In this document: positions 1,588-50,459 of the stretch, one piece after another
Numbering within the stretch: the first letter of the stretch is position 1
Layout: each line of letters starts with the position of its first letter
Source: a virus
Length of the DNA: 64,000 bases
IMG/VR virus record: IMGVR_UViG_3300045482_000112
Location: 1 to 64,000 of that record
Direction: 5' to 3' (one strand)
Position numbers and translations under genes: made by a program
The notes under the pieces: model-generated
The model's database searches: none
What the model was told of the DNA's origin: nothing
What the model saw: only the letters and a program-made list of their open reading frames with translations

Positions 1588-1590
1588 CCC

Positions 1591-3513: not shown

Positions 3514-3549
3514 CTCGAGGCTGCCCAACCCCTTATCTGAGGAGCTGTT

Positions 3550-4007: not shown

Positions 4008-4016
4008 GGAGGAGAC

Positions 4017-4406: not shown

Positions 4407-4423
4407 CTTACCCAGGGGAGTGC

Positions 4424-7707: not shown

Positions 7708-7714
7708 CCCCTAT

Positions 7715-7738
7715 CCCCCTCCCGAAGGAGGGGGTTTT
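7715..7738 (+). terminator. intrinsic terminator after nrdJ
   Basis: An 8-bp stem (CCCCCTCC/GGAGGGGG) with a CGAA loop and TTTT, 8 bases after the nrdJ stop. Confidence 0.85.
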
Positions 7739-7750
7739 CCCTGGAGTCTT

Positions 7751-8029
7751 ATGAAACAAGACAAAGCAACCCTGGAAGTATCCAACATCAAGAAGGGCTT
7801 CATCTACAAGGCCGACCTGACCCTCACTGAGTCTGCCGAAGGCTGGGGCGTGTACCGCCACCAGCGCCGACTGAGCCTGGCTCCCCAGCGCACCGAAGCC
7901 CTCATCCTGGCTGCCGAGAAGGTCCTCGAAGGCTTCAAGGAGCCCAGCCTCTACACTGCCTTTGTAGACGGAGTTCCTTATGTCCAGCGCGAAGTACTCA
8001 AAACCAAAGAAGCGGTGACCTCGAGGTAG
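7751..8029 (+). CDS. unknown protein, 92 aa
   Basis: The ATG is placed after CTGGAG, downstream of the terminator; the longer in-frame opening would run through the hairpin. Residues include VSNIKKGFIYKADLTLTESA, giving a beta-hairpin look, and a helix with TEALILAAEKVLEGF. No family recognised. It lies 3 bases from the membrane-protein gene. Confidence 0.6.
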   Translation: MKQDKATLEVSNIKKGFIYKADLTLTESAEGWGVYRHQRRLSLAPQRTEALILAAEKVLEGFKEPSLYTAFVDGVPYVQREVLKTKEAVTSR

Positions 8030-8032
8030 TCC

Positions 8033-8719
8033 ATGAGCAAACTACGTCTCTTACAGGCCGGACTGGTGGTCTACATCACTATCCTCATCACCTCCTTCCT
8101 GCATGTACTTCACGCTTTCCTGGCCTACTCTGACAAGACCATTCAGCTCGGCAGTCTATCCATTCCAGGATGGTGGAGCGGACTGGGAGTGGCTATAGGT
8201 CTGGACCTGGCCATCATCTACTTCTCCTTCGTCTCGGTATTCCTGCAGACCAATGAAAAGGATGCCCAGGGCAAAACCATTCAGTCCCCCGGAGCCCTGG
8301 CGGCCCGCTACGGGGCTACCTGGGCCATGCTGCTGGTCTGGTTTGCCGTGGTCTACTCCATGGTCTGGCAGCACCTGCAGGCCGGGGAGTGGGTGCCCGC
8401 CTTCATTGGGTTCATCCTCTCCCTGTTTGTCCCCCTGACCTCCCTGCGGGTAGGCCAGGTGCTGGGGGAAATTGCCAAGCTACCCGAGACCGAGACCCGG
8501 CCCCAGGAGTACCTGCCCCTGACCTCCCTGGCCCGAATTATCGACCGGGATGTCAAAGAAGTACTGGCCGCCATCCGCAACTACGAACAGGGTGAGGTGC
8601 GCCTGCTACGTCGGGGCAAAGACTGGCTGGTGCATAGCCAGGATGTGGAGGTGGTGCGTGCGGCAGTATTCGGTTATAACGAACGAAGCAGAACTGCGCA
8701 ACTTACGCCTGCAACTTGA
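8033..8719 (+). CDS. membrane protein with four helices and soluble tail
   Basis: 228 residues. Four hydrophobic helices are visible (about residues 8-30, 48-70, 95-112 and 120-140), then a soluble domain (SLARIIDRDVKEVLAAIRNYEQGEVRLLRRGKDWLVHSQDVE) that looks like a winged-helix or recognition-helix unit. It may anchor a DNA-binding domain to the membrane, but this is inference. The end overlaps the DNA polymerase start by 62 bases. Confidence 0.65.
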   Translation: MSKLRLLQAGLVVYITILITSFLHVLHAFLAYSDKTIQLGSLSIPGWWSGLGVAIGLDLAIIYFSFVSVFLQTNEKDAQGKTIQSPGALAARYGATWAMLLVWFAVVYSMVWQHLQAGEWVPAFIGFILSLFVPLTSLRVGQVLGEIAKLPETETRPQEYLPLTSLARIIDRDVKEVLAAIRNYEQGEVRLLRRGKDWLVHSQDVEVVRAAVFGYNERSRTAQLTPAT

Positions 8720-10910
8720 AGAAGCTCCCCTGATAGCCATCGACACCGAAACCACCGGACTGGACATCTACCAGCCCCACTTCCGGCTGGTAGGGGTCAG
8801 CCTGGCCCCCAGTGCCTACCAGGGCTACTACCTGCCCTTAGACCACCTCAACTTCGCCGGACTCTCCTACCAGCCCCCTATGCTGTCCCAGGAGGCCGTA
8901 ACCGAGTTGATGAGCTGGGTCTTTGCCCACAAGCCCACCGTCATGCACAACCGCTCCTACGACCGCAACGTACTGGCCGTGACCCTGGGCCTCGACCACT
9001 CCCTGACCCAGACCTCCCAGGACACCAAGCTGGCCGCCCACCTGCAGGACGAGAACGCTCCCAAGTCCCTGAAGGAACTGGCCAAGCGATGGCTGGGGGT
9101 CAGGGATGGAGGGGGAAGGTTCGCCGACATAGCCAACACCGCCACCCAGTCCTGGGAAACCCTCTGGACCAGCGAAAAGGTGGGGGCCCTGAACAAGCAT
9201 GGTCGTACCTACAAGAAGAACCGCTTTGTCCTGCAGCCGGACTGGCTCACCAAAGCGGAAGCCTTGTACCGCCAGACAGCCGGGGAAGCCTCCAGCCTGG
9301 CTTTCCTGTTTGACTACGTGTCCCACCTGTTCGCCCGCATGAAGTCCCGCACCCTGGTCGAATACTCCGGAGGTATGCCCCAGGACTTCCGGTACCTGCC
9401 AGTGAACCTGGCTGCCCATTACGCTGCCGATGACGCCATGAACACCTACGCCCTCTGGGTCACCCTGTACAACGGGCTTTCCCTGGAAGGACTAACCCCC
9501 CTGTACCAGAACCTGGAACTCCAGGTGGATGACATCATGACCCGCGCGGAACACCGGGGCATCCTGCTACATCCTGAAACCCTCCTCGAGGCCAAGGCCC
9601 TGCTGGAGGAACGCAGCATACAAGCTCGAGAAGAAGCCATGACCGCTCTCTCTCAGGCCCTGGACCCCCGCGACTTCATGGAGGGCAAACTCAACCCCCA
9701 CACCCTGCTAAACTCCCCCAAACAACTGGCCTACCTGCTGTATGAGGTCCTGGGATACCCCATCCTGGAGAGAACCGAAACCCACCAGCCCTCCACCAGC
9801 CGGAGTGCCTTACAGGGGCTGCTCTCCCGCCGCAGCAAACCCCGCCTGCGCCCCGACCTCGAGGAACAAGGAGCCCAGTTCCTACAAACCAAACACAAAC
9901 TGGATGCCATGAAGAAACTGGCCTCCACCTATACTGACTCCCTCATCGAAAAAGCCGACCCCCAGTGCCGGGTACACCCCTCCTTCAACATCACCGGCAC
10001 CGTCTCGGGGAGGATGTCCTCTAACAACCCCAATTTTCAGAACATCCCCCGACTCTCCTCTGAAGAGACAGCCAACTCCCCCTGGCTGCACGACATCGAC
10101 ATTCGTAAAGCCTTCGTAGCCGACCCAGGCTATGTCTTAGTGGACGCCGACTTTGTTTCCATGGAGATGGTGGTCTGCGCCGCCCTCTCCCGAGACGACA
10201 ACATGACCCGTCTACTCAACGAGGGGAGGGACCTGCACTGCCACACCGCCCGGTACGCCTTCAAAGTGGGGTTTGACCTGGATGACGCCACCTTCAAGAA
10301 GAAGTACAAGGACTACCGGCAAAAGGCCAAGGTGGTTAATTTCGCTATGATATACGGCGGTACGAGCTGGACCCTCCAAAAGAACTTTGGCTTCACCGAA
10401 GAGGAGGCCGAGGCCGCCGTCCAAGGCTACTTCGAGGGCTTTCCCGGGGTCAAGGTCTGGATGGACCAGGTGTACCAGGAACTCTCCCAGAAGGGCTACG
10501 TGGTCTACCCCGAGTACGGATACATCAAACGCATGGATACCCAGCCTCCCACCAACAAGTGGGATAAGGACGCCGCCAGGCAGTACCGGGCTGCTCTGCG
10601 TAGCTGTCAGAATGCCCTCATCCAGGGCTACAGCGCCTTCATCGTCAAAGATGCCATCGTCCAGCTTAACAAAGCCTTCCTGGAACAGACCCTGGAGTCC
10701 CGAGTGGCCTTCCAGGTCCACGATGAAATAGGCGTACTGGCCCCCTACCGCGAAGCCGAACAGGTGGGAACCTTGATGTCCAGTATAATGACCAAATGGC
10801 TGGGGAAAGTCCTGTTGACCAGTGAGGTCGAATACAAACGTACCATGTCCAAAAACGAGCCCTCGCTGACCCTGGAGGAACTTCGCGCCCTGGCCCGGTC
10901 CTATGAATGA
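8658..10910 (+). CDS. family A DNA polymerase with 3'-5' exonuclease
   Basis: 750 residues from a GTG placed after GGAGGTGG; the frame is open further upstream but only as a shadow of the membrane gene. Exonuclease motifs: IDTETTGLD (Asp29, Glu31), MHNRSYDRNVL and YAADDAMNTYAL. Polymerase motifs: A, VLVDADFVSMEM (Asp496); B, RQKAKVVNFAMIYGG; C, QVHDEIGVL (Asp689, Glu690). The usual DYSQIELR of motif A is changed to DADFVSMEM, as in some divergent phage enzymes. No 5' nuclease domain. The likely replicative polymerase, working with the helicase and SSB encoded at the far end. Confidence 0.95.
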   Translation: MRQYSVITNEAELRNLRLQLEEAPLIAIDTETTGLDIYQPHFRLVGVSLAPSAYQGYYLPLDHLNFAGLSYQPPMLSQEAVTELMSWVFAHKPTVMHNRSYDRNVLAVTLGLDHSLTQTSQDTKLAAHLQDENAPKSLKELAKRWLGVRDGGGRFADIANTATQSWETLWTSEKVGALNKHGRTYKKNRFVLQPDWLTKAEALYRQTAGEASSLAFLFDYVSHLFARMKSRTLVEYSGGMPQDFRYLPVNLAAHYAADDAMNTYALWVTLYNGLSLEGLTPLYQNLELQVDDIMTRAEHRGILLHPETLLEAKALLEERSIQAREEAMTALSQALDPRDFMEGKLNPHTLLNSPKQLAYLLYEVLGYPILERTETHQPSTSRSALQGLLSRRSKPRLRPDLEEQGAQFLQTKHKLDAMKKLASTYTDSLIEKADPQCRVHPSFNITGTVSGRMSSNNPNFQNIPRLSSEETANSPWLHDIDIRKAFVADPGYVLVDADFVSMEMVVCAALSRDDNMTRLLNEGRDLHCHTARYAFKVGFDLDDATFKKKYKDYRQKAKVVNFAMIYGGTSWTLQKNFGFTEEEAEAAVQGYFEGFPGVKVWMDQVYQELSQKGYVVYPEYGYIKRMDTQPPTNKWDKDAARQYRAALRSCQNALIQGYSAFIVKDAIVQLNKAFLEQTLESRVAFQVHDEIGVLAPYREAEQVGTLMSSIMTKWLGKVLLTSEVEYKRTMSKNEPSLTLEELRALARSYE

Positions 10911-11394
10911 ACTCGTCCAGCCCGTCCACACCCTCTTCACCGAACGCACCTTGCGCACCCGACCCTCCCACAAGCACCCCGACCGCCCCAAAGAGGTGGT
11001 GGTCTGGTACAACACCGGGTACTGGGACATCCCCACCAAAGACCCCGAGAAGGAGGTAAATATGGTCTCCGGGCTAAGGGTCTTCCACTCCGCCCCCAGC
11101 CAGGAGTTCCACCAGATTCAGTTCAACTGGACTCCCTACCAGCCCAAGGCCCCTGGTCAGTCCGACCCCCTCAAACCGGCCTACTTCCAGTGGGCCGAAC
11201 AGGGTAAACACCCCCGGCAGGTGGTCCTTTTTTACCGGGTCTGCGGTCCCCACAACTACACCTCCCACCGGCTGGTGGCCGTAGCTGCCAGCACTCCAGA
11301 AACCTACAACCTGCTGAAGAACCGGCTGGTGGAAGCCTACCTGGACTGGACCCTGACCGGCTACCTACCGGTCATCGGTGGTTCGCGCTCCTAA
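10903..11394 (+). CDS. unknown protein, 163 aa
   Basis: ATG overlaps the polymerase end by 8 bases. Basic N-terminus (RTRPSHKHPDRPKE), then strands with VVVWYNTGYWDIP and RQVVLFYRVCG. No family recognised. It is the last rightward gene before the convergent late operon. Confidence 0.65.
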   Translation: MNELVQPVHTLFTERTLRTRPSHKHPDRPKEVVVWYNTGYWDIPTKDPEKEVNMVSGLRVFHSAPSQEFHQIQFNWTPYQPKAPGQSDPLKPAYFQWAEQGKHPRQVVLFYRVCGPHNYTSHRLVAVAASTPETYNLLKNRLVEAYLDWTLTGYLPVIGGSRS

Positions 11395-11426
11395 CAACAA
11401 AAGCAGGGGGAGGAAACACCCTCCCC
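11394..11426 (-). terminator. terminator of the late operon
   Basis: GGGGAGG/CCTCCCC stem with a six-base loop. Read on the minus strand it is followed by GCTTTTGTTGTT, so it would stop leftward late transcription. It lies in the 38-base gap between the convergent gene blocks. Confidence 0.65.
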
Positions 11427-11432
11427 ATGCAC

Positions 11433-11744
11433 CTAAAACTCAGTCCGCACAAAAATACGGAAGATACTCTCCTGGGCCAGCCGGAAGTCGGCTCCCAGGG
11501 TCAGACTGGGATTCTCCAGCAGCACCTGCAACCGGCCATAAAACCGGTCCGGCAGTACTCCCAACTCCGGCAACAGCCACACGTACATCCCCGAGCCCAG
11601 GTTTACCTGAGCCAGGGGGTAGTTATAGCGCAGTAACAGGTAAGGACCTGCTACCGGACGCACCTGATAGCCCGTCTCCAGGCTAAACCGCTGAGCCTGT
11701 ACCGGCCCCAGCCCCAGTACCAACAACACCAGTAGTAGTTTCAT
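11433..11744 (-). CDS. secreted beta-rich protein, 103 aa
   Basis: A clear signal peptide (MKLLLVLLVLGLGPVQAQ) is followed by alternating strands (FSLETGYQVRP, PYLLLRYNYPLAQVNLG). Its place at the end of the lysis-gene cluster suggests a cell-envelope role such as a spanin-like or outer-membrane protein. That role is inferred from position only. Confidence 0.6.
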   Translation of the reverse strand: MKLLLVLLVLGLGPVQAQRFSLETGYQVRPVAGPYLLLRYNYPLAQVNLGSGMYVWLLPELGVLPDRFYGRLQVLLENPSLTLGADFRLAQESIFRIFVRTEF

Positions 11745-11951
11745 CTAGAACCCCGGTCGCAAAGGGCGAGACGGCCACGGCCCCGTCTCGCCATCTCGCT
11801 GAAGAGTCTCACCAGGCGCAGGGCACCCCATGCTAAACAAAGGCCGACCAGCCAGGCACTGCAGGGACGCCGTAGTAACCCCTGCGCCATACGCCAGCAG
11901 CGCTACCAACCCTGCCTGAACCCATCTATTCCCCAACAGTTGCTTCACCAT
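11745..11951 (-). CDS. small membrane protein, 68 aa
   Basis: One hydrophobic helix (WVQAGLVALLAYGAGVTTASL) near the N-terminus, then a soluble tail with two Cys. It is directly adjacent to the secreted protein gene and overlaps the metallopeptidase by 26 bases, so it belongs to the lysis cluster. It could be a second lysis membrane protein. No family recognised. Confidence 0.55.
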   Translation of the reverse strand: MVKQLLGNRWVQAGLVALLAYGAGVTTASLQCLAGRPLFSMGCPAPGETLQRDGETGPWPSRPLRPGF

Positions 11952-12258
11952 CAGCTACCTCCAACCCGGAGAGGGTCAGAACCAACTCCGGGTTATCCCG
12001 TAAGAGGGCCATCAAGCCCCCGGTAAGGGCGTGTACCTGGCCCTCCGTAAGCTGAATAAGCAGGGTGTGGTCTAAAGCGTGAATGCACTCGTGTAGCAGG
12101 GTATCCTGTACCTGCTCGGGGTGCTGCTCCAGCAGGGTGATGCGCTGCTCCAGATAGTCCACCTGCCCGGTGACCGACATGCTCAACCCCTCCGAGGACT
12201 GTACCCGCACCGTCCAGGTCTTGCCCAGAATGCGCACCGTCTCGGGCAGGCTACTCAT
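11926..12258 (-). CDS. small HExxH metallopeptidase-like protein
   Basis: 110 residues from the ATG that overlaps the preceding stop (ATGAGTAG). HECIH at residues 56-60, inside DTLLHECIHALDH, is a zinc-binding HExxH helix, and QVHALTGGLMALLRDNPEL resembles the C-terminal helix of small phage metallopeptidases found beside lysis genes. Substrate unknown. The frame is open upstream, but that region is covered by the next small gene. Confidence 0.7.
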   Translation of the reverse strand: MSSLPETVRILGKTWTVRVQSSEGLSMSVTGQVDYLEQRITLLEQHPEQVQDTLLHECIHALDHTLLIQLTEGQVHALTGGLMALLRDNPELVLTLSGLEVADGEATVGE

Positions 12259-13156: not shown

Positions 13157-15702
13157 AAGAAGAACACCTCCTCCGGGGTAGCCTGGGACTCCTGCCAGCG
13201 CAGCTGGCCCAGGTCCCGAGTGGTCTGCCCACCCAGCAAGGTACCCACGTATCCGCACCGCATGGAGGTCACTACATTGCCCCCGGCCTGCAGGCTCACC
13301 TCAAAGTCATCCAGCACCAAAAAGTAGTCCACCGCCTCCACCGGGTGTCCTTCACCCCCTGCTGGACGGCGGGCAATACCCACAAAATCCCCTATCCTCA
13401 GTCCCGGATGCCCTACGTAGCGCAACTCAATTGTGGCTACTTCCAGCATCCTCCGCAGGGCCAACGCGTCGGCCAGCCGTGCCGCCTGGGACTCGTACAG
13501 CCGGTAGCCTGCAAGCTCATAGTAGCGGTCCCCATTCGCATCCTGCTGTACCTGTCCCACCAAAGCCGGGTTGTCCAACCAGTAGTCGGTGACGAAGGGG
13601 TTCTCCACCAACTCTTCGTCCTTGGGCAGCCGGGCCGCCAGGTTCCCCATCTCGGTTACGGCGGTGGGAAACCAGTCCGGCAAATACCGTCCGGTCGCCC
13701 GCCGCTTGGTATCCTCCCCTCGCTCCCCGCTGGCCGAGTACAGCAACAGTCCGTCAAAGCGCAGGGTAAAGGTCGTCCAGGCTACGTGGCTGGTAGCCCG
13801 TACCCGCACCCCCAACACCCCCCGATACCCGTTGACTTCGCTGATGACCCCGCCTTCGCGCAGGCGCAGGCCCTCGGTAATGAATTCCACCTGCACCTGC
13901 GGGTCCAAGAAGGGGTTCAGGTCTACGGTATCCACCCCCCGGTGAACCAGGCTGACGCTGCCCGGCACGTACACCGCTGCATTTCCCTGAGCATCCGTGA
14001 ACTGGAAGTCCACCTCCAGGCTGGTCCAGGCCACCTCCACCACGAAGTCACGGGAAGGTTGCCCCCGGCTACGGTGATGGATAGCTACCGGTACCGTACT
14101 GTCCACCCCATCCTCAGTGGTGGCCAATCCTTGTACAGCCAGACTCTTGGGAGAGGTCTTGGCCGAATACTCCAGGTTGGGCACATACAGTCGGGATTCC
14201 GGCAGGTACCGTCCGCCCACCGCGTTGAAAACCACGGCCCGAACCTCCCCCAGCCCCGCCTCTGCCTGGGGTACCAGCGGAACCAGGGCCGGATGTCCCG
14301 CCACGCTGCCAAACTCCAGCAGGTTGGCCTGGGCCACGTCCTTTAGCTTGCCCCGCAGGTTCTTGTTGGTGGTCGCGTACAACTGGTACCAGTCCAGGTC
14401 ACTATCCAGCCGCACCAGCTTGGGGGTCGCATTCTGCAGCCAGGCATCCACCGGACGAAACATAGCAGGGTCCAGCAGCCAGGGCTTGACCCCCACCCCC
14501 GGCGAATGTTGCACTACATGGGCGATGTACCCACCATCAGTGGAAAACTGGAGGTCCAGCCCCGCCACCCCATCCACATCCGCCCCTACCACATCCCGGT
14601 CCAGAGAGTCGGCCAGCAGGTCTGTCAGTCGACTCACCTCCAGGCTGTAGGAGACCCCGGTAGCATACTCCTCCCGCTGCACCCCGGTTACCCGCCCCAG
14701 CACTGCCGGGTTTCCATCCAGCATGACCCGCACCAGCGGGGTCTGGTACACCGCCCGGTCCAGCCGAGCATCGGGGACGGCCAGTTGTAGTCTACCGCCC
14801 TGCACCGCAGTCACAAACGGAGTCAGGTCCAGGGTACCATCCAGCAAAACCTGGATACGGGGCACATACAGGTTGGAACTGGAACTGCGCGAGGGCAGGA
14901 CCGGATTACTGGTCGCATACTCCTCCAGATACCGTACCCGCAAAGAACTCAGGGCCTGTAGCTGGCCCAGACTGGGCGGGGTCAGGATGCGTACCCTCAT
15001 GCTGTCATATCCCCGGCGCAGGATGTCCTCCCGGCGGGGAAGGGCAGTCTGCCAGGCATACCCGGCCTCCCCCCCACTGCCAAAGGCATACTCCATACTC
15101 CATCCAGGGGGTAGCCCCGCCACCGACTGCCAGCCCTGGGGGGTCAGTACCTGGTGGGTAGCGTCCACCCCCGAAACTTCCAGCAACAGCGAGGAGAGCA
15201 GCAGACTCCGGGACACCCAGTGCCCGGCTCCAGTAGCGGTCTGCTGGAACAGCACCCGGTCCAGGGGTACCGCCACATTGTTAGCATCCAGCACCTCCAC
15301 CACCCACTCGAACTCTTCCAGCCCGCCCCAGCGGCGAAACCAGTCGCTGGGCAGACTCAGCGTGTATACCGCGGGGTTGCGCATCTCCTGGGTGCGGGGG
15401 GTAGGGGCGGGCACCCAGCGCACCTCATCATCTGCGCCCCCAATAAGGTTAGCCCCCTCCACCGAACTTCTCACCCGCAGGGCATGGGGGGAGGGACCGT
15501 ACAGCGGCAGGAACAGCGCCTCCAGTACCGGCTGGGAGTCAGGAAGACGAAGCTGGGTGGCTCCCGGTATAAGGGACACCGGGGGTACCCGCACCCCTGC
15601 TGCTTGGGGCACCAGTGCCCCGTACAGATAGCGACCCACCGTGCAGTTGGTAGTCTCAGTCGCCTCGATAAAGTTACCGATGGTCAGGTCGAAGGCTGCC
15701 AT
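13153..15702 (-). CDS. tail tip / baseplate hub-like protein
   Basis: 849 residues. The middle part (VPRIQVLLDGTLDLTPFV, VYQTPLVRVMLDGNPAVLG, GVSYSLEVSRLTDLLADSL) resembles the strands of phage hub proteins that bind the tail tube end. The C-terminal part (HPGLRIGDFVGIARR) also fits a hub-like domain. Its position downstream of tape measure and fibre genes supports a tail-tip role. Family assignment is by pattern only. Confidence 0.6.
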   Translation of the reverse strand: MAAFDLTIGNFIEATETTNCTVGRYLYGALVPQAAGVRVPPVSLIPGATQLRLPDSQPVLEALFLPLYGPSPHALRVRSSVEGANLIGGADDEVRWVPAPTPRTQEMRNPAVYTLSLPSDWFRRWGGLEEFEWVVEVLDANNVAVPLDRVLFQQTATGAGHWVSRSLLLSSLLLEVSGVDATHQVLTPQGWQSVAGLPPGWSMEYAFGSGGEAGYAWQTALPRREDILRRGYDSMRVRILTPPSLGQLQALSSLRVRYLEEYATSNPVLPSRSSSSNLYVPRIQVLLDGTLDLTPFVTAVQGGRLQLAVPDARLDRAVYQTPLVRVMLDGNPAVLGRVTGVQREEYATGVSYSLEVSRLTDLLADSLDRDVVGADVDGVAGLDLQFSTDGGYIAHVVQHSPGVGVKPWLLDPAMFRPVDAWLQNATPKLVRLDSDLDWYQLYATTNKNLRGKLKDVAQANLLEFGSVAGHPALVPLVPQAEAGLGEVRAVVFNAVGGRYLPESRLYVPNLEYSAKTSPKSLAVQGLATTEDGVDSTVPVAIHHRSRGQPSRDFVVEVAWTSLEVDFQFTDAQGNAAVYVPGSVSLVHRGVDTVDLNPFLDPQVQVEFITEGLRLREGGVISEVNGYRGVLGVRVRATSHVAWTTFTLRFDGLLLYSASGERGEDTKRRATGRYLPDWFPTAVTEMGNLAARLPKDEELVENPFVTDYWLDNPALVGQVQQDANGDRYYELAGYRLYESQAARLADALALRRMLEVATIELRYVGHPGLRIGDFVGIARRPAGGEGHPVEAVDYFLVLDDFEVSLQAGGNVVTSMRCGYVGTLLGGQTTRDLGQLRWQESQATPEEVFFF

Positions 15703-42734: not shown

Positions 42735-43318
42735 TCCCACCGCCCACCCCCCAGTTCAGCGAGGCTTACGCCTCGCCTCACTTCCACCCACCGACAGCAA
42801 AGCCCCCCGGCATGGCCGAGGCTCTCTACGCTCGCCAGGAAAGACAAAGGCAACACTACGTGTCCCACCGCCCACCCCCCACTCCCACCCCTAGAGAACC
42901 TCACTCACCCGCCAACGACCCTCGGGCCAACAACACCCCAAGGACCCACCGCCCGCTCGGCTACGCCGCAGCCTCAAGGGCAGCGCGACTAGAGTCCCAC
43001 CTCCCGCTCGGTCCCAAAGGGGCCTCAAGGGCAGCGCGACTAGAGTCCCGCCGCCCACCCCCGGCCCTGGCCTCGCACGCTCGGCCAGGCTTGCCCACCC
43101 TTACGACCCCCCACACCACAACCTGGCCGCCCAAAGAAAAGCTAGGCTGCGGCCACAGGCCGCACTCGACTGTCCTCACCCCCACCCCCACGCCTCGCAC
43201 CCTACGCTGAGGGACAAAGACCAGTGGAAAGTTCTACCCGACCAAGGCCCCACCGCCCGTTCAGTTACTACGTAGCCTCAAGGGGGGCAGAACACGTAGT
43301 GTCCCACCGCCCACCCCC
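42735..43318 (+). repeat. C-rich repeat array with hairpins
   Basis: A core TCCCACCGCCCACCCCC or close variant occurs near 42735, 42863, 42944, 42994, 43046, 43245 and 43302. Several copies follow a GCCTCAAGGG block and a short palindrome such as GACTAGAGTC or ACACGTAGTGT. Two units (about 42971-43000 and 43022-43051) share GCCTCAAGGGCAGCGCGACT exactly. On the minus strand the core is G-rich enough for quadruplexes. No convincing gene is present; one 132-codon frame here is low-complexity. Confidence 0.7.
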
Positions 43319-43650: not shown

Positions 43651-45804
43651 ATGCTAAGCATAGAGAAATTCAAGGAAACAATTAAGGAAAAGAAGGAGCA
43701 CCTCACAGAAGCCCGTAAAGTATACACGGGCTCGTTTTCAGAGAGAGGATGGGAGAGGGACTCGTTCGCTCTCCTTTTCAATAATGACGTAAAAATCGAG
43801 GACGTAGTGGTAGGGAAGGAGCCTGCCACTGTTTTAGACAACATGGAATTCGTGGGGGGCAACTCCCACCGGGTGGTGTACATGGACCTGAAAGGGTTCA
43901 TGGCCAAATACCCCATCCTTGGAAAATGGTGGGGGGAGAAAGGAGACTCCCACCTCCTGGCCAGTATGTTTTTAAGGCCAGGAAAGTTATTCCAGGGGGA
44001 AGGGTATATTTCCCTGCCCCCAAAAAACAATAAGGAGGTCAATGATGGCCTCCTGATGACCCTGAGCCGTAAAGAATGGGGTCGTTTGGTAGAGGGGTTT
44101 GAACTGCCCCTCGAGACCGCCCTAGTTCAGGGGACGGTGTTTAGTCCCCAGGACGGAATTGTTGGAAAGGGCACCATCCGGGTGGTACTGCCCGGTGAGA
44201 AGCCCCAAACTTTTGTGGGGAGCTGGAAGTCCCTGCCCGAGGAGGTAGGGTCGCTGCTATTTTCCAGTATTTCGGTGCTGGAAACGGACGCCACCTATCG
44301 ACCCAGGGCGTCTATCAATTTACAGGAGTACACCTACTGGGCCAGGGCAAGGGGGTACTCCTTGTCTCCATGGGTCTTGGAAGAGGCCCTGGCCGGGGTC
44401 AATAAAATTATGGTGGGGGAAAAGTCCTCCATCTACAACGGGTGGGGGTACCTCTCCCGTCTAGGGATACCCGCCCCCGACTCCATGCTGAAGGAGATGG
44501 AGGAGGGCCTGAAGGGAGGGCTATACAAGGCCCTCACTCGCTGGGAGCTGTCCCGTGCGGCAGGGTGGAGGGGTAAGGTCTCCGGGTCCGAGAAGTTGGC
44601 GGACCGGGAGATTCTGATGCCCAAAAGCTCAGATACCGTGATAGGGGACACGGTATACGCCACCAGAAACCCCGCCCTACCCATCAATGGGTGGGTGAGA
44701 TACACGGTAGTGGGCCACGTAGGAGGCAATGTGGCCTATGTAAGTGGGGCGAGCGATAGCAAGTTCGCCCAAGTTTTAGGGGGAGACTTCGACGGGGATG
44801 ACCTGGTGGTGCTGTACAGGAACCCCGTGCAGGGCGAATACGAGCCCGTGGTCAACCTCCAGCAGTGGAAGGCCGAGGGAAGGAAGTACGGCACCTCGGC
44901 AGAGGACCGGTTGGCCCGCTGGAACAAGGAGCGGGAAACCAATATCGGGCAGTGGGACATCCTAGCCCGATACTGTGCCGACTTCAATATGCTGAGCGAG
45001 GAGCTGGTCCTGCAGTTCTCCAAACTCATACAGTTCAGCATCTCTCTGAAGAAGAGAGTGGGAGAACTGGAAGTGCCCAGAGTGGTATACACGGCCATGA
45101 AGATGGTGGGTCCCATGAAGGAGCTATCGCCCACCTACTTCCTCCGCACCTTCAGGGATAGCACCAAGGAGTCCCGCGAGGCCGGAATGGTCACCCACGC
45201 AGAGGCCCTGGCCGAGCTGATGCCCATTGTCGAGGCAGTCTCTGATGGGCTCGAGGCAGTCTCGGTGGGGAAAACCCGCTGGGACTTTTCGAGGGCCAGA
45301 GAAGTGGCCTTGAAAGTGAGGGACAACGACGCCCTCAAGGTGGTCGCAAAAGAGTACCTTGAGAAGTTTGTGGCCCTCAGCACCGCCAAATTCCAGGCTG
45401 CAGAGGCCGAGGATGGGGATGTACGGAGCATCCTCAATCGGGAGCTCAGGTACCTACTGCAAGTAGAAATGCCCGAGTTCATGCTGGGCCTGGAGGAGGA
45501 ACAGGCCCTGGAGTTCTCCGCCGAATTGGTCAAGGTGTTCCCCAACAGCATCTTCTGGGTGTTCGCGGTACACCCGGAATTCCTCAGAAGGGTGGCCATG
45601 GCTACCTTCGCTGGAGAGAAGGCCATGTTGGTGGGGGAGCATAGCTTGCAGGAGGGGGATACAGTTATCATCCCCCCCTACACCCGAGAAGTTGAGGTTG
45701 GAGGGCAGATGATGAAGCTCTCCAACGGAGTAATGCTCTGGGAGGAGGTGAAAACCGCCACCGTGGTGAAGGTGTATGCCAAGTCGGTGGTCCTGAAATT
45801 CTAA
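43651..45804 (+). CDS. two-barrel RNA polymerase-like protein
   Basis: 717 residues after AAGGAG. GGDFDGDDLVVLY (Asp379, Asp381, Asp383) is the metal-binding signature of the beta-prime double-psi barrel. It is preceded by GDTVYATRNPALP and VAYVSGASDSKFAQ, closely resembling YonO, crAss-like phage and QDE-1-type single-chain polymerases, where DxDGD holds the catalytic Mg. The size lies between YonO and QDE-1. I recall P23-45 also carrying polymerases of this class. Template and promoter are unknown. The nested fold lies directly upstream. Confidence 0.75.
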   Translation: MLSIEKFKETIKEKKEHLTEARKVYTGSFSERGWERDSFALLFNNDVKIEDVVVGKEPATVLDNMEFVGGNSHRVVYMDLKGFMAKYPILGKWWGEKGDSHLLASMFLRPGKLFQGEGYISLPPKNNKEVNDGLLMTLSRKEWGRLVEGFELPLETALVQGTVFSPQDGIVGKGTIRVVLPGEKPQTFVGSWKSLPEEVGSLLFSSISVLETDATYRPRASINLQEYTYWARARGYSLSPWVLEEALAGVNKIMVGEKSSIYNGWGYLSRLGIPAPDSMLKEMEEGLKGGLYKALTRWELSRAAGWRGKVSGSEKLADREILMPKSSDTVIGDTVYATRNPALPINGWVRYTVVGHVGGNVAYVSGASDSKFAQVLGGDFDGDDLVVLYRNPVQGEYEPVVNLQQWKAEGRKYGTSAEDRLARWNKERETNIGQWDILARYCADFNMLSEELVLQFSKLIQFSISLKKRVGELEVPRVVYTAMKMVGPMKELSPTYFLRTFRDSTKESREAGMVTHAEALAELMPIVEAVSDGLEAVSVGKTRWDFSRAREVALKVRDNDALKVVAKEYLEKFVALSTAKFQAAEAEDGDVRSILNRELRYLLQVEMPEFMLGLEEEQALEFSAELVKVFPNSIFWVFAVHPEFLRRVAMATFAGEKAMLVGEHSLQEGDTVIIPPYTREVEVGGQMMKLSNGVMLWEEVKTATVVKVYAKSVVLKF

Positions 45805-45888: not shown

Positions 45889-45964
45889 TACTTCGGCACC
45901 TAAGAGGGCCGCTTCGCGGCCCGAATCGGTGAGGACAAAAGAGGGAAAAGAAACAGCCCTCTGG
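45889..45964 (+). ncRNA. P2-P3 structured motif, copy 1 (partial)
   Basis: P3 is GGGCCGC-TTC-GCGGCCC (45906-45922), followed by GAATCGGTGA. The 5-base linker TAAGA precedes it. A P2 3' strand ending in GCACC is present, but I find no matching 5' strand, so this copy is incomplete. A GAGGG/CCCTC hairpin lies between it and the ribosome site of the gene at 45982. Confidence 0.55.
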
Positions 45965-45981
45965 CGTCCGAAGGAGGAGTT

Positions 45982-46299
45982 ATGGAATTAAAGAACTTAA
46001 CCCCCCATGCCCTGGTGGTTGCAGGGCGAACCATCGAGCCCTCGGGGGTCGTGGCAAGAGTTAGTGTGTCGTTCGAGGATGCCGGGTCCGTGGATGGCAT
46101 CCCCGTGGTGTCTCAGGTATTCGGGCAGGTGGAGGGCCTGCCCGAGCCCCAGGAGGGCGTGGCCTTCATCGTCAGCGGTATGGTTCTAGCGACGATAAAG
46201 GGCCGGGCGGACGTGTTCGCCCCGGACACCGGCCCCACCGCCATCAGGAACGAGAAGGGCCACATCATCGGGGTGGTCCGTCTCGTGGCAGCGGGGTAG
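45982..46299 (+). CDS. conserved uncharacterised NLTPH-type protein
   Basis: 105 residues after GGAGGAG. KNLTPHALVVAGRTIEPSGVVARV, then VFGQVEGLPEPQEGVAFIVSGMV and VFAPDTGPTAIRNEKGHIIGVVRL, match a widespread family of small bacterial and phage proteins of unknown function that I recognise by these phrases. No catalytic residues are known. The leader carries the partial P2-P3 motif. Confidence 0.75.
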   Translation: MELKNLTPHALVVAGRTIEPSGVVARVSVSFEDAGSVDGIPVVSQVFGQVEGLPEPQEGVAFIVSGMVLATIKGRADVFAPDTGPTAIRNEKGHIIGVVRLVAAG

Positions 46300-46304
46300 T
46301 TACC

Positions 46305-46562
46305 ATGGTCCCCACCCTGGCCTCCCTGGGGCGGGCGGTGTTTGTCTGCCGCACGGCCCAGGGATGGGATGTTAGCCCTCATCAGCGGGTATCCCGTAGC
46401 AGGCTGCAGGCATTTACTGCCAGCGGCCAGCTCCGGCTGCTGGATACCCCCACAATAGCCTTCGTCCAGTCGGGGGAGAAGTGGGTGCCCGCAGGCATCT
46501 ACGACTCCCCCGATGGCCCCATCGCGCTGGAGCTGCGGCAGGTAGCCGTGGCTTCGGCGTAG
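46305..46562 (+). CDS. unknown protein, 85 aa
   Basis: ATG 6 bases after the previous stop, with weak GGGGTAG upstream. Strands near the end (FVQSGEKWVPAGIYDSPDG, IALELRQVAVASA) follow a basic middle (SRSRLQAF). It could form a small beta barrel. No family recognised. Confidence 0.5.
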   Translation: MVPTLASLGRAVFVCRTAQGWDVSPHQRVSRSRLQAFTASGQLRLLDTPTIAFVQSGEKWVPAGIYDSPDGPIALELRQVAVASA

Positions 46563-46580
46563 GTAGTAGTAGGAGGACCC

Positions 46581-46730
46581 ATGTATACCAATATAGAAAT
46601 AGAAGAGCAAGGGGACGGCTGGGTAGTTTCCCAGGCGTCCAACGGCATTATAATCGGGGTCTACTCCACCTGGGAACAAGCCTGGGCAGTTGCCACCGCA
46701 ATCGATGCCGAGCTCGGCGTCCCCCAGTAG
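46581..46730 (+). CDS. small protein, 49 aa
   Basis: ATG 4 bases after AGGAGGA. MYTNIEIEEQGDGWVV, then GIIIGVYSTWEQAWAVATAI, looks like a strand pair and a helix. A terminator follows at once. Shape and size resemble small phage accessory proteins. Function unknown. Confidence 0.65.
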   Translation: MYTNIEIEEQGDGWVVSQASNGIIIGVYSTWEQAWAVATAIDAELGVPQ

Positions 46731-46737
46731 CCCCCAG

Positions 46738-46769
46738 CCCCAGGGTCCAAAAGACTCTGGGGTATTTTT
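46738..46769 (+). terminator. intrinsic terminator
   Basis: CCCCAG/CTGGGG plus GTC/GAC around a CAAAA loop, followed by TATTTTT, 8 bases after the 49-residue gene. Confidence 0.9.
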
Positions 46770-46810
46770 CTGTACCCCGGCTTGACCGGTGGTACTCCTG
46801 GCAAAAGCCA

Positions 46811-46901
46811 CAGGGCCGCATTCGCGGGGGCTATAACCCCGGCCCTGGCGATGAAGCTGAGCTTTATCGCCCTCGAGGTTCCACAAGAACCGAGAGTGAT
46901 G
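46811..46901 (+). ncRNA. P2-P3 structured motif, copy 2 (variant)
   Basis: P2 is GGCGATGAAGC (46847-46857) with GCTTTATCGCC (46861-46871), 11 bp with one G-U pair. Linker CTCGA. P3 is GGTTC (46877-46881) with GAACC (46887-46891), followed by GAGAGTGATG. An AGGGCCG/CGGCCCT helix with a GGGG/CCCC hairpin precedes it. The P3 sequence differs from other copies but keeps pairing. No gene follows directly. Confidence 0.6.
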
Positions 46902-46958
46902 GCTTTCTAAACAACAAACCAAGGTTTTGGTTGTGGGGTACAACTAAAACCTCGACAT

Positions 46959-47062
46959 GCCTCTGTGAGGGCCTACAAGGGGCCTAGAAGCGCTTACCCC
47001 CCCGTCTCCAGTCTTACCCCTACAACCGGGGGTGGAGGAGCTTCTAGGTACCCTACAGAGGC
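46959..47062 (+). ncRNA. ~110-base fold, copy I
   Basis: GCCTCTGT (46959-46966) pairs with ACAGAGGC (47055-47062), and CCTAGAAGC (46983-46991) with GCTTCTAGG (47040-47048). Between them lie a C-run, TCTCCAGT and ACCCCTA, shared with copy II. The flanking TTATAGGGGGT is also shared. No coding frame explains the match. Confidence 0.65.
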
Positions 47063-47076
47063 TTATAGGGGGTGTT

Positions 47077-47162
47077 TACCCTCGAGGTGTCGGCTCGTCC
47101 CCAGAGTTCCCTCGAGGGTACCCCGACACTCTGCAGGGCCGCTTCGCGGCCCGAACCGGTGA
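47077..47162 (+). ncRNA. P2-P3 structured motif, copy 3, with pseudoknot
   Basis: P2 is GTGTCGG (47087-47093) with CCGACAC (47123-47129). Linker CTGCA. P3 is GGGCCGC-TTC-GCGGCCC (47136-47152), then GAACCGGTGATAAGGAGG, which includes the ribosome site of the gene at 47176. TACCCTCGAGG (47077-47087) can also pair with CCTCGAGGGTA (47110-47120), which crosses P2 to give an H-type pseudoknot. Confidence 0.65.
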
Positions 47163-47175
47163 TAAGGAGGACAGA

Positions 47176-47682
47176 ATGTTATACGTGGTTTTCAACACCG
47201 ACAAGCCCACTCCCTTCGTAAATATCGGGGGGGTCCAGTTCGGCCCCCTGGGTACGGGAAAGTACCTGGGGAACGACTGGAGCTACCTGGTTATCCCCGA
47301 GGTAGCAGGGCGCTTGCTTTCCGTGCAGGTGCCTTCCAGGGCCACTGCCAGGGATGCCAGCTTCCACGGCCAGTTCGGGGATGGCGTATATGCCGTCCTC
47401 CTGGCCCGGTACAACGGGAGACGGTCCCCAACCCTGTTCCTCACCGATGAGGCCGACCATGAGCCCATCGGAACCGGAGGGGCCAAGTGCGTCTGGCAGT
47501 ACGGGGATGGCCACGGTATGAAGTTCGGGGCCCTCCTCCGGCTGGACCCCGTAGCTCAGGTAAAACTGAGCGTAACGGGGCACCACGACCACGGCTGGGC
47601 CCGTCACATCTTCAAATTTCAGGATGGGGTAGTCTCCCGCATCCCCAGGAATGGGGGCTGGAAGACTCCCCCAGTAATTTAG
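47176..47682 (+). CDS. unknown protein, 168 aa
   Basis: ATG 6 bases after AAGGAGG, directly after motif copy 3. Strand-rich: MLYVVFNTDKPTPFVNIGG, GVYAVLLARYNGRRSPTLFL, AQVKLSVTGHHDHGWARHIF. The His-rich GHHDHGW could bind metal. No family recognised. An in-frame opening at 47032 runs through the motif and is rejected. Confidence 0.65.
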   Translation: MLYVVFNTDKPTPFVNIGGVQFGPLGTGKYLGNDWSYLVIPEVAGRLLSVQVPSRATARDASFHGQFGDGVYAVLLARYNGRRSPTLFLTDEADHEPIGTGGAKCVWQYGDGHGMKFGALLRLDPVAQVKLSVTGHHDHGWARHIFKFQDGVVSRIPRNGGWKTPPVI

Positions 47683-47690
47683 GGAGAGTT

Positions 47691-47999
47691 ATGCGAATAG
47701 ACATAAAGGCCACCCTGGCCGCCCTGATGGGGATGCCGGGGGAGTTAGTCACTAGGACAAACCCCGCCAGTAGCGCGGTGGGGCCGTCCACCGAGTTTGC
47801 CGTCCGGGACCAGGACGGGGAGGACAGCCTGGAACTCCTCCTCGACTACCTGGTCATCTCCGTATCCTGGGGGTCCATGAGTTTCTGGGACCGCTGGGAG
47901 GGGGAGCCCGGAGAACCCCTGCGGTACACGGGAACCGTAGGGGACGCCCACAGAAGACTACCCGCATGGGTGGTCTTCGAGGAAGGGGGTGCGGGTTGA
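47691..47999 (+). CDS. unknown protein, 102 aa
   Basis: ATG after AGGGAGAG, 8 bases after the previous gene. MRIDIKATLAALMGMPGELV, then an acidic middle (DQDGEDSLELLLDYLV) and SFWDRWEGEPGEPL. No family recognised. The following kilobases lack convincing genes. Confidence 0.6.
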   Translation: MRIDIKATLAALMGMPGELVTRTNPASSAVGPSTEFAVRDQDGEDSLELLLDYLVISVSWGSMSFWDRWEGEPGEPLRYTGTVGDAHRRLPAWVVFEEGGAG

Positions 48000-48092
48000 T
48001 GCCCTCATAGGGTGGTTTGTCGGGTGGTACTCGAGGCGAGAGTCCTCAGGATGGCTCCCGCTAGGGGGGCTATACCCCGGCCACACCGTGGG

Positions 48093-48150
48093 GGGATGAC
48101 CTGCCTCAAAACTTTCCTAGGCAGGTACCGCCAGGTAGACGCCATGGGGG
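48093..48150 (+). repeat. dispersed repeat family B, first of four
   Basis: About 45-60 bases: TGACCT, then AAAACTTTCCTAGGCAGGTA, then CCGCC and GACGCCATGGGG. Other copies are near 48636-48700, 48761-48820 and 49229-49262; the last keeps only GCATGTACCGCC. One reading gives KTFLGRYRQVDAMG in copy 1 and KTFLGMYRRIDAMG in copy 2, so these may be gene remnants. In copy 1 ACCTGCCT pairs with AGGCAGGT. Confidence 0.55.
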
Positions 48151-48215
48151 TGCTGAAGAGGAGCGAAGCGACTGTTCCCCACCTGAGAGGGCCGCGAAGC
48201 GGTCCGAACCGGTGA
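48149..48215 (+). ncRNA. P2-P3 structured motif, copy 4
   Basis: P2 5' strand GGTGCTGAAGAG (48149-48160), loop GAGCGAAGCGA, 3' strand CTGTTCCCCACC (48172-48183), 9 of 12 pairs. Linker TGAGA. P3 is GGGCCGC-GAA-GCGGTCC (48189-48205), with one G-U pair, then GAACCGGTGA. The loop matches those of the copies at 48518 and 50376. No gene follows within 100 bases. Confidence 0.65.
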
Positions 48216-48414
48216 TGAGAAAGAGCAGAAGGAGCGCGGAGAAGCGCTCCGGGTAGGGACAGCAAAGGTAAACCCAATCCTGCACCTGAGAAAGGAGGTC
48301 ACCCCATCTATAAAGTGTGCTCCCAGCCGCAATTCCTATCCAATGAAGGGGGTAGAATCCCCCCAAATCAGGAAATGCGTCCAGGGCATACTAAAATGCC
48401 ATATGCCTCTGTGA

Positions 48415-48509
48415 GGCTCTGTAGGGGGTCTAGAAGGCTGACCCCCCCCCTCTCCAGTACTTACCCCTAGACCAGGGGGTCGAGGCGCTTCTAGGGGGTC
48501 TACAGAGCC
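48415..48509 (+). ncRNA. ~110-base fold, copy II
   Basis: GGCTCTGTAG (48415-48424) pairs with CTACAGAGCC (48500-48509), and CTAGAAG (48430-48436) with CTTCTAG (48488-48494). The intervening C-run, TCTCCAGT and ACCCCTA and the flanking TTATAGGGGGT match copy I. The outer helix differs in sequence between copies but still pairs (GAGGC versus GAGCC on the 3' side). Confidence 0.65.
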
Positions 48510-48517
48510 TTATAGGG

Positions 48518-48581
48518 GGTAATGACGGGGGGCGTAGCGACCCGTCGTTGCCCTTGAGGTTCCGAAGGAACCGAACGGGTG
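48518..48581 (+). ncRNA. P2-P3 structured motif, copy 5
   Basis: P2 is GGTAATGACGGG (48518-48529) with CCCGTCGTTGCC (48541-48552), 12 bp with two G-U pairs, loop GGGCGTAGCGA. Linker CTTGA. P3 is GGTTCC-GAA-GGAACC (48558-48572), then GAACGGGTG. It follows the ~110-base fold directly. Every P3 base pair except the first two differs from the GGCCGC type, yet all pair. Confidence 0.7.
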
Positions 48582-48852
48582 TTTAGGGGTAGCATGTCGG
48601 GAAGGTTGGCCGAATGCCCCCCACCCCAGAGAAGAGGGGGTGACCTCCGGGTTAAAAACTTTCCTGGGCATGTACCGCCGTATAGACGCCATGGGGACCC
48701 TACAGACGCCGAGCTAAGGCCCCATCCAGAGCCCGGAGGCCCCCCCGCCGCAGGGCTCGGGATGCCGGGGGGACTAAAAACTTTACGGAGCGTGTACCGC
48801 CCGGCAGGCCACAGGGGGTAACTCCCCTCAGCCGTGTTGCAGAAAGGAGGCA

Positions 48853-48861
48853 TGGTATACT
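48853..48861 (+). promoter_or_regulatory. extended -10 promoter TGGTATACT
   Basis: TGG followed by TATACT, matching the extended -10 at 41145-41153. Predicted start is near 48868. The downstream transcript is noncoding in appearance and contains strong hairpins. Confidence 0.45.
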
Positions 48862-48945
48862 GGGCAGTACCAGCCCATTTAGTCTGACTCCATAGCCCCC
48901 CTCCCATGACAAGTCGCTTCGCTCCTTGTCTGGGCGGGAGGGGGG
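48861..48945 (+). ncRNA. candidate small hairpin RNA
   Basis: Directly after the TGGTATACT box: TGGGC/GCCCA hairpin (48861-48877), then CCCCCCTCCC (48896-48905) paired with GGGAGGGGGG (48936-48945), with GACAAG/CTTGTC nested inside at 48908-48930. No T run follows, so termination is unclear. No open frame of note. Confidence 0.4.
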
Positions 48946-49050
48946 TTGGGGGGTGGGAAATGTAACGACTCACCCTAGAGATTCCTTGGGCCGAGTGAGG
49001 AATATGCGGTGCAGGACGTAGGGGAGGCATGTACCGGTGCCACGCAACAT

Positions 49051-49080
49051 CGACCCCTAACGACCCCTAACGACCCCTAT
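49051..49080 (+). repeat. three tandem CGACCCCTAA units
   Basis: Two exact copies and one with a final base change, 10 bases each. Telomere-like in look but far too short to be one. It could be a protein-binding array. Confidence 0.8.
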
Positions 49081-49515
49081 CCACCCTTTCTCCCCCTTCC
49101 CGACCCTCCCCCCTTATCCCCCTCACCCGTCACTAACCTCGTCCAGGACGAGGTTTCTCTCCTACGGAGGAGATGTCCACAGGACTATACTCAGTACAAT
49201 TCCAGTTAGGTAAACGGCTACACCACAGTCTTTTTACTTAACTGAGCATGTACCGCCAGTCCTGCTACCGACATTTCCTCCCTCACCATTCCTACCCTGT
49301 GTCTGGGACACACTTCCCCCTCGTCTTGAAGGGAGCTTCTGCTATTCTCCTTTCTCTTCTAGTACAAAGGACTGGGAGGGAAAAGGTGTATCCAGAGAGA
49401 GAAAGGGTTAACTCCATGTCCTTCACCCTAATACATGTCTTTTACTAGTAGGCATGTACGGGGTCATTGTCTTTTACCCTTAACTCCACGTCCTCTACCA
49501 GTAAAGAACAAGGAG

Positions 49516-49604
49516 AAAGGTAAGGAACGTAGAGAGATAGTAGAAAGGACTGGGAGATAAAGGGTAAGGGACGTAGAGAGACAGTAGAAAGGACTGGGAG
49601 ATAA
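49516..49604 (+). repeat. purine-rich tandem repeat, two units
   Basis: Units of 45 and 44 bases with few differences, sharing ACGTAGAGAGA, AGTAGAAAGGACTGGGAG and ATAA. AAAGGACTGGGAG recurs once near 49367. No gene spans them. Confidence 0.85.
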
Positions 49605-49665
49605 ACAATAGAGAACAGAGAGGAGATTAGGATTTTTGCTACCCTAGCCCAAGTACCCCCCTGTG

Positions 49666-49671
49666 TACAAT
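49666..49671 (+). promoter_or_regulatory. -10-like TACAAT and leader hairpin
   Basis: TACAAT with a predicted start near 49678. The leader then opens with a hairpin AAGCCCCG/CGGGGCTT (49677-49707) holding an inner GATG/CATC, followed by TTGCC. It resembles an attenuator ahead of the TnpB-fragment gene. Confidence 0.4.
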
Positions 49672-49729
49672 GAGAGAAGCCCCGCGATGTGCCCGCATCC
49701 GGGGCTTTGCCATTCCTTGAAAGGAGTGT

Positions 49730-50290
49730 ATGAAGCTCGGGAACACCCCAAACAAAACCGTGGTTGTGTACCGCCTGTACCCCACAAAGGAGCAAGAAAG
49801 TACCCTGCTGCTCACACTAGACCTAACGTGGAAGCTATACAACATCGCCCTGACGGAACGGAAGGAAGCCTGGAAACGACACAAGAAGAACCTATCCGCA
49901 TACGACCAGATGTATGCCTTACCCTACCTCAAGAAGACAAGACCCGAGTTCCAAAAGGTCTACGCTCAGGTGCTCCAGCAAACCCTTATCCAGGTGGAAC
50001 AAACGTTCAACAGATTCTTCGCAAAAGTCCGCCTGAAAGAGAAGGCAACCTATCCCCAGGTTGTAGAAAGAGGGGAGTGGACTAGCTTCACCTTTCCGCA
50101 AGTCGTGGTGGGTACAAAATGGCAAGGTCCAGGTAAGTTACGAGAAAACGGTACCGTCAAAATTCCCAAGATAGGAGACGTTCGGATAGACGTGCACCGT
50201 CCCCTTGAAGGGACACCTAAAGCCCTCACCATCAGTTACCAGAACGAGCAATGGTACGCACTGTACTCCTGTGACGTACCACCAACCTGA
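49730..50290 (+). CDS. TnpB/OrfB N-terminal fragment
   Basis: 186 residues after AAAGGAG. TVVVYRLYPTKEQESTLLLT, then a helical region (WKLYNIALTERKEAWKR) and NGTVKIPKIGDVRIDVHRPL, SYQNEQWYALYSC, match the N-terminal domain of IS605/IS607 TnpB proteins. It stops where the RuvC nuclease half should begin (usually a GIDxG motif). No RuvC or zinc ribbon is found downstream in any frame, so it is not an active nuclease. Either a remnant or a captured RNA-binding domain. No insertion-sequence ends or TnpA nearby. Confidence 0.7.
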   Translation: MKLGNTPNKTVVVYRLYPTKEQESTLLLTLDLTWKLYNIALTERKEAWKRHKKNLSAYDQMYALPYLKKTRPEFQKVYAQVLQQTLIQVEQTFNRFFAKVRLKEKATYPQVVERGEWTSFTFPQVVVGTKWQGPGKLRENGTVKIPKIGDVRIDVHRPLEGTPKALTISYQNEQWYALYSCDVPPT

Positions 50291-50308
50291 GCCCACAATA
50301 ACCACAGC

Positions 50309-50349
50309 AACCCACCCAGAAAGACACTCCATGTCCGACTGGGTGGGTT
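50309..50349 (+). terminator. hairpin after TnpB fragment
   Basis: An 11-bp stem AACCCACCCAG/CTGGGTGGGTT with a 19-base loop, followed by CTCTTGT. The T run is weak, so it may be a transcript-end or guide-scaffold-like hairpin instead. Confidence 0.55.
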
Positions 50350-50356
50350 CTCTTGT

Positions 50357-50459
50357 GCCGCTTCGCGGCTAGACCGGTGATGAAGGGAAGCGTAGCGACC
50401 CGTCATTACCTATGAGGGCCGCTTCGCGGCCCGAACCGGTGGGGAGTAAACAACCCACC
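50357..50459 (+). ncRNA. P2-P3 structured motif, copy 6, preceded by a lone P3
   Basis: A P3-like GCCGC-TTC-GCGGC (50357-50369) is followed by AGACCGGTGATGA, whose GGTGATGAAGGG (50376-50387) pairs with CCCGTCATTACC (50399-50410) as P2, one mismatch and one wobble, loop AAGCGTAGCGA. Linker TATGA. P3 is GGGCCGC-TTC-GCGGCCC (50416-50432), then GAACCGGTG. GGTGGG/CCCACC (50438-50459) makes a further hairpin before the ribosome site at 50461. Confidence 0.7.

Follow-up and report, generated by a model that had tools for sequence, protein, structure and literature searches.

This study concerns a 64,000-nucleotide stretch of phage DNA (the window, which covers 64 of the 68.3 kb of virus record IMGVR_UViG_3300045482_000112) and a family of short GC-rich hairpins arrayed in it directly downstream of an RNA polymerase gene. 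The DNA polymerase encoded in the window is about 50% identical to those of the Thermus phages phiFa, TSP4 and P23-45 and, judging from its sequence, the window phage is a relative of phiFa within a small group of hot-spring-type phages. The product of the open reading frame (ORF) at 43651-45804 is homologous to the phiFa 'RNA polymerase' (36% identity; phiFa genome MH673672.2), and polymerase searches recovered homologues with 33-35% identity in two more phage contigs, L015/L009 (IMGVR 3300002494_000005) and L016/L010 (IMGVR 3300044960_000476). Three of the four members of this polymerase family match the Pfam family RdRP PF05183 (QDE-1-like, two-barrel), and the family aligns with gp64 of P23-45 around the DxDGD motif (hhalign, E 5e-5). 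Since that motif was not found in the tape-measure ORF of the window (2636 amino acids), no virion RNA polymerase (vRNAP) fused to a tail protein is evident, as in phiFa, and the large ORFs have no vRNAP family match in PHROGs or Pfam. The polymerase gene and the hairpins downstream of it, some of which a preliminary description had named P2, are the following:

43651..45804, plus strand: gene for a two-barrel (non-virion type) phage RNA polymerase, 717 amino acids, with a GGDFDGDD active-site motif
45906..45922, plus strand: element GGGCCGC-TTC-GCGGCCC, linker GAATC, proposed start at GG 45928, 54 nucleotides (nt) upstream of the ATG at 45982
45933..45969, plus strand: leader hairpin downstream of the 45906 element
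46847..46871, plus strand: P2 of the preliminary description, an 11-base-pair (bp) hairpin, GGCGATGAAGC-TGA-GCTTTATCGCC
46877..46891, plus strand: degenerate copy GGTTC-CACAA-GAACC with tail GAGAGTGAT; no gene follows directly
47136..47152, plus strand: element GGGCCGC-TTC-GCGGCCC, linker GAACC, proposed start at GG 47158, ATG at 47176
48149..48183, plus strand: P2 hairpin, apical part GA-GCGAAGC-GA (GGTGCTGAAGAG...CTGTTCCCCACC)
48189..48205, plus strand: copy GGGCCGC-GAA-GCGGTCC, with its loop reversed in sense, a single G-U pair and tail GAACCGGTG; no gene follows directly
48518..48552, plus strand: P2 hairpin of 12 bp, loop GGGCGTAGCGA, two U-G pairs
48558..48572, plus strand: copy GGTTCC-GAA-GGAACC with tail GAACGGGTG; no gene follows directly
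50357..50369, plus strand: element with a 5-bp stem, GCCGC-TTC-GCGGC, linker TAGACC, proposed start at GG 50376
50376..50410, plus strand: leader hairpin, the P2 of the preliminary description at 50376, with the GG of the 50357 element as its first two bases, loop AAGCGTAGCGA
50416..50432, plus strand: element GGGCCGC-TTC-GCGGCCC, linker GAACC, proposed start at GG 50438, ATG at 50473
50438..50459, plus strand: leader hairpin GGTGGG...CCCACC, whose first bases are the GG of the 50416 element; AAGGAGG follows

The preliminary description had read this array as a functional RNA in which a P2 helix, a linker, a short P3 helix and a shared tail recur as a unit, and much of what it noticed is sound. 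Hairpins of 17 nt with a tail stand at 45906, 47136, 48189 and 50416; the further versions at 48558 (GGTTCC/GGAACC) and 46877 (GGTTC/GAACC) belong with them, and to these has to be added the copy at 50357, which had been missed. Three copies do precede genes, at 14, 31 and 50 nt from the start codon, and three P2 helices do share a loop (GCGWAGCGA at 48149, 48518 and 50376). The tail is exact, as GAACCGGTG, in three copies only, with GAATCGGTG, GAACGGGTG and AGACCGGTG elsewhere and none at 46877. The P2-then-P3 unit we drop, because P2 varies between copies (those at 46847, 47087 and 48149 differ) and because its GGTG start is the end of the preceding element, the P2 at 50376 starting at the GG of the element at 50357. 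The conserved core is the helix called P3, and P2 is mostly a second hairpin starting at the GG. Every gene-proximal copy in the window combines a TTC loop with a GC-rich stem of 5-7 bp, a short linker and a GG, and at 45906, 47136 and 50416 the hairpin GGGCCGCTTCGCGGCCC is followed by GAAYCGGTG.

Simple duplication accounts for part of the repetition in the window: the segment 46779-47161 recurs as 48014-48581, at a spacing of about 1.2-1.4 kb (46779 versus 48014, 46957 versus 48403). The copy at 48189-48205 is, with its flanks, an inverted copy (77%) of the one at 50416-50432 with its flanks; as it has GGTG at a spacing of 14 both ways and a TTC loop on the minus strand, it could point leftwards.

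About 20 copies of the element, differing in stem sequence, lie on the sense strand before early genes in the four phages (window, phiFa, L015 and L016), and the observation made in the window is more interesting with these relatives than alone. The hairpins of phiFa, L015/L009 and L016/L010 are likewise GC-rich and lie after the polymerase gene, in front of early genes; phiFa has elements only downstream of that gene. All follow a common plan: a stem of at least 5 bp, a C-G-closed loop TTC or TCC (some L016 copies have TGCC or TACC), 5-10 nt of linker and a pyrimidine-GG, the base preceding the GG being C or T in 16 of 16 core copies. Often a second hairpin begins at this GG, and A-rich sequence, a Shine-Dalgarno site and the start codon come next; in about half of 17 units, the GG forms the first bases of the main downstream stem. 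Independently of stem length or sequence, the YGG lies 13-16 nt, mostly 15, from the loop centre: the value is 15 for every intergenic copy of phiFa (five) and of L015 (two), 13-14 in the window and 15-16 in L016, with scattered spacing in the phiFa coding copies.

That this repetition exceeds chance is borne out by a site grammar (loop C-T[CT]C-G, stem of at least 5 bp, YGG 13-16 nt from the loop centre) set against 100 dinucleotide shuffles. On the sense strand of the early regions it found four sites in the window (0.03 expected), nine in the forward half of phiFa (0.07), four in L009 (0) and five in L016 (0), and in the late region of the window none on either strand. Among the P23-45-type relatives, TSP4 has no site, P23-45 has one inside a coding sequence and stolb3 one at the homologous coding position. 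Extra phiFa hairpins on the minus strand and in the late part put the background of that genome above the shuffled expectation.

The element co-occurs with this polymerase clade. The only contig matched by a strict pattern of the phiFa/L015 form among 2.9 million viral contigs encodes this polymerase, and the exact pattern of the window form had no match in viral contigs or in bacterial or archaeal genomes. A less strict TTC pattern produced 44 background matches that lack the RNA polymerase motif, and relatives with loose spacing occur in many GC-rich phages; since this loose form is common as background, the TTC hairpin alone is not diagnostic and was not used as evidence. Such a background of loosely spaced hairpins, and the further long inverted repeats and duplications among which the window array lies, would suit a DNA site with another role (in binding a cruciform-binding protein, replication, packaging or recombination) or a dispersed palindromic repeat. 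We consider this improbable in view of the sense orientation directly before early genes in four phages, the fixed Y-GG spacing and the lack of a bacterial or archaeal match to the window form.

The compensatory changes first claimed for the window copies are weak within the window (seven copies; 26 of 500 shuffles reach the score) and strong once the three other phages are included. In an alignment of 16 pyrimidine-loop copies from the four phages, from which the copies at 48189 and 48558 were left out as mis-registered by MAFFT, stem covariation was 0.676 versus 0.188 after shuffling (0 of 500 shuffles as high), and five of the six pairs change on both sides. The loop, by contrast with the stems, is invariant in these copies (C-T-Y-C-G). 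All 16 gene-proximal core copies carry C-TYC-G on the sense strand, 11 of them within the full heptamer GCTYCGC, and core pairs 2-5 are free of G-U among 25 hits (one core mismatch allowed). The P2 hairpins do carry G-U pairs on the sense strand.

These patterns bear on whether the element acts as RNA or as DNA. A co-transcribed RNA element would comprise two stem-loops in the intergenic or leader RNA, with a role in the stability or processing of early transcripts or in insulating or tuning the translation of the following gene; the first would be an RNA hairpin some 8 nt before the Shine-Dalgarno sequence or the second hairpin. The intergenic regions are indeed strongly structured as RNA (z to -7.5), many regions being structured on both strands when sense and antisense folding are compared; the P2 hairpins keep their pairing via G-U intermediates, with no A-C, several stems extend outwards through sense-strand G-U, and three phiFa copies lie between a stop codon and GGAGG/ATG. 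We nevertheless regard this explanation as unlikely, if far from negligible, because the loop C-TYC-G is invariant and is, to our knowledge, not a known stable RNA loop, the core of the first hairpin lacks G-U, the YGG spacing is kept where the GG is not a Shine-Dalgarno sequence (in the window and most of L016), and the phiFa copies are confined to the region downstream of the polymerase gene. Neither a bistable switch based on CACC/GGTG pairing around P3 nor a loop-tail complementarity, considered for phiFa and L015, holds in all phages.

Stop codons are immediately adjacent to several copies (phiFa 16819 and 18183; L016 12133 and 13708), as would be expected of sites where the phage polymerase terminates or pauses at the end of a gene. 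That role is very doubtful: no U-tract follows the hairpin (the tails are GAACCGGTG, TGCTTGCGGAGG and similar), the next start codon in phiFa comes within about 26 nt of the loop, which leaves no room for a separate promoter, and the conserved part reaches downstream to the GG. Hardly credible is a TnpB guide-RNA scaffold or transposon-end structure, a link suggested at the outset by a truncated TnpB/OrfB fragment of 186 amino acids in the early region (window 49730-50290). Although this fragment matches HTH_OrfB_IS605 and two copies lie 70-140 nt downstream of it, it is not an intact tnpB, the other window copies are upstream of it and most copies are far from it, no TnpB was noted near the phiFa, L015 and L016 copies, and no Rfam covariance model matched in the window at the gathering score; the relatives largely refute this link.

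A different comparison proved informative. Coliphage N4 (Schitoviridae) has three published hairpin promoters for its vRNAP, with a heptamer centred at -11, template bases -10G, -11R, -8G and +1C, and a sheared G:A in the loop (PMC4496689). Applied to N4 1-12000 as a positive control, the same grammar found exactly three sites, with centres at 96, 565 and 4554 (GTTGCTTCGCAAC-TTAT then GGACAT, AAGAAGCTCCGCTTCTT-TT then GGATGA, and AAGCTGCTCCGCAGCTT-TT then GGTAAT); they contain GCTTCGC or GCTCCGC, a TGG and a +1 G at centre+11, and agree with the published promoters in number, heptamer and +1 (PMC4496689). Like the N4 early promoters, our elements have a stem of 5-7 bp, a 3-nt loop and a candidate GG start after a pyrimidine, and stand in sense before early genes; the N4 template heptamer GCGRAGC is common to the window, phiFa and L015 copies. 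This match in heptamer, stem and putative Y-GG start is the strongest single argument that the elements may be promoters. Differences from N4 are that GCGRAGC is replaced by CCGGAGG in L016, that the stems are far richer in GC, and that the copies, about 20 over four phages, extend into middle genes. With DNA parameters, the window hairpin has a stability of -4.3 kcal/mol at 70 °C, comparable to that of the N4 hairpins at 37 °C (-2.7 to -6.1), so the GC-rich stems fit a thermophile. A C-GRA-G loop makes small DNA hairpins unusually stable.

These features suggest that the elements are probably, though by no means securely, DNA-hairpin promoters at which the polymerase encoded by the phage initiates transcripts that carry a stem-loop at their 5' end. 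The GC-rich inverted repeat would close its 3-nt loop (C-TYC-G on the sense strand, C-GRA-G on the template) and be extruded as a small template-strand hairpin. The two-barrel RNA polymerase that the phage itself encodes, which is like gp64 of P23-45, would recognise and bind this hairpin and start transcription 13-16 nt downstream from the loop centre, at the GG. The transcript would thus begin with GG and, in about half of the units, fold at once into a 5'-terminal stem-loop, which may protect the short early messages; the A-rich stretch, the Shine-Dalgarno site and the start codon would come after it. The initial reading was right about a structured element that is conserved through compensatory change and located before genes. 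That it acts as RNA instead of DNA is doubtful: the anatomy of P3 (an invariant C-TYC-G, no inner-core G-U in gene-proximal copies and a near-fixed Y-GG distance) is that of an N4-type hairpin promoter, and the P2 hairpins, which contain G-U pairs, make more sense as stem-loops of an RNA 5' leader. The link to the phage polymerase, also raised then, is plausible. For phiFa (MH673672.2), the predicted starts are at GG 5133, 5185, 16834, 18198 and 31107.

Several observations weigh against hairpin promoters. The position of +1 is predicted, from sequence alone, in all four phages; the loop centre lies 13-16 nt from the GG, versus 11 in N4; and some antisense or coding-region hairpins also have a YGG at 15. 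Three phiFa copies have GGAGG itself in the Shine-Dalgarno position, so that the spacing there could reflect translation. Within the window, the loop is GAA on the sense strand at 48189 and 48558 and 5 nt long at 46877, and these three copies lack a template-strand C-GRA-G with a perfect 5-7 bp stem; as no gene directly follows any of them, they may be decayed. In P23-45, which has a distantly homologous non-virion RNA polymerase (nvRNAP), genes are not preceded by such an element, a difference that extends to the P23-45-type phages. Finally, unlike N4, these phages have no detected N4-like (T7-related) vRNAP, phmmer having found no relatives of the N4 mini-vRNAP in the available sequence of the four phages; recognition of the hairpin would therefore have to be convergent.

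Other phage promoters offer partial parallels. T7 promoters are short and end in the initiating GG, followed by a leader stem-loop and a ribosome site; in contrast to the elements described here, they are double-stranded sequence motifs without a hairpin. For the nvRNAP of P23-45, a 2024 study proposes a GC-rich promoter, assigned by location only; it reports phiFa to be without a vRNAP-type promoter and holds that phiFa-type phages must use a different pre-early strategy (PMC10770324). By description only, that gp64 motif resembles our elements in being GC-rich, in serving early and middle genes and in belonging to a homologous polymerase family (PMC10770324). The AR9 nvRNAP provides a precedent for a non-canonical phage RNA polymerase, homologous to the bacterial enzyme, that reads the template strand (PMC9209446), although AR9 promoters have no hairpin and depend on a deoxyuridine -10 element and a sigma-like subunit (PMC9209446). 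We propose, tentatively and at somewhat less than even confidence, that a single-subunit phage RNA polymerase of the two-barrel, cellular type uses N4-like DNA-hairpin promoters, with heat-tuned GC-rich stems and a built-in 5' stem-loop on the transcript; two unrelated polymerase lineages would then have come to recognise hairpin promoters independently.

Further structured or repeated sequences were noted in these genomes. A second family consists of near-palindromic hairpins of about 120-190 nt with arms GCCTCTGTAAGCC / TATACGGCC and, in several, an inner CCCTAGTGTCTACCACTAGGG hairpin; its members lie at window 46953-47075 and 48399-48520, L015 2303-2467, 3914-4095 and 11158-11278, L016 ~14985-15180 and ~15390-15590, phiFa ~4800-4980 and, near the polymerase gene also in this phage, P23-45 (OP542242) ~2340-2500. 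It may represent a non-coding RNA, an origin or a terminator. A different two-hairpin element precedes three pre-early genes upstream of the phiFa polymerase gene (MH673672.2 886-985, 1172-1279 and 1519-1628); its stems vary, and its loops TAGCCGCCCA and TAGGGGCGGATA are kept and mutually complementary, so these are possible kissing loops, and the element may mark the pre-early class. The window also contains diverged repeats AAAACTTTCCTNGGCAKGTACCGCC within a non-coding stretch of about 1.6 kb (48090-48149, 48637-48696, 48759-48818 and 49236-49268) and a 51-nt repeat (CCCACCGCCCGCTCGG...) in three copies (42945-43046 and 43249-43299), which precede the polymerase gene and lie close to what is probably the end of the genome. 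At L016 16213-18961 there are four tandem, paralogue-like ORFs of 226-235 amino acids, with a recurrent GGxAxAWLAG-like stretch and repeated CGCAACACAGGGTAGT segments.

The question of which promoters phiFa-type RNA polymerases choose can now be put to a cultured phage, since exact predicted starts are given for phiFa, which grows on T. thermophilus HB27. If the proposal is true, DNA-hairpin promoters would be a recurrent solution rather than a peculiarity of N4.

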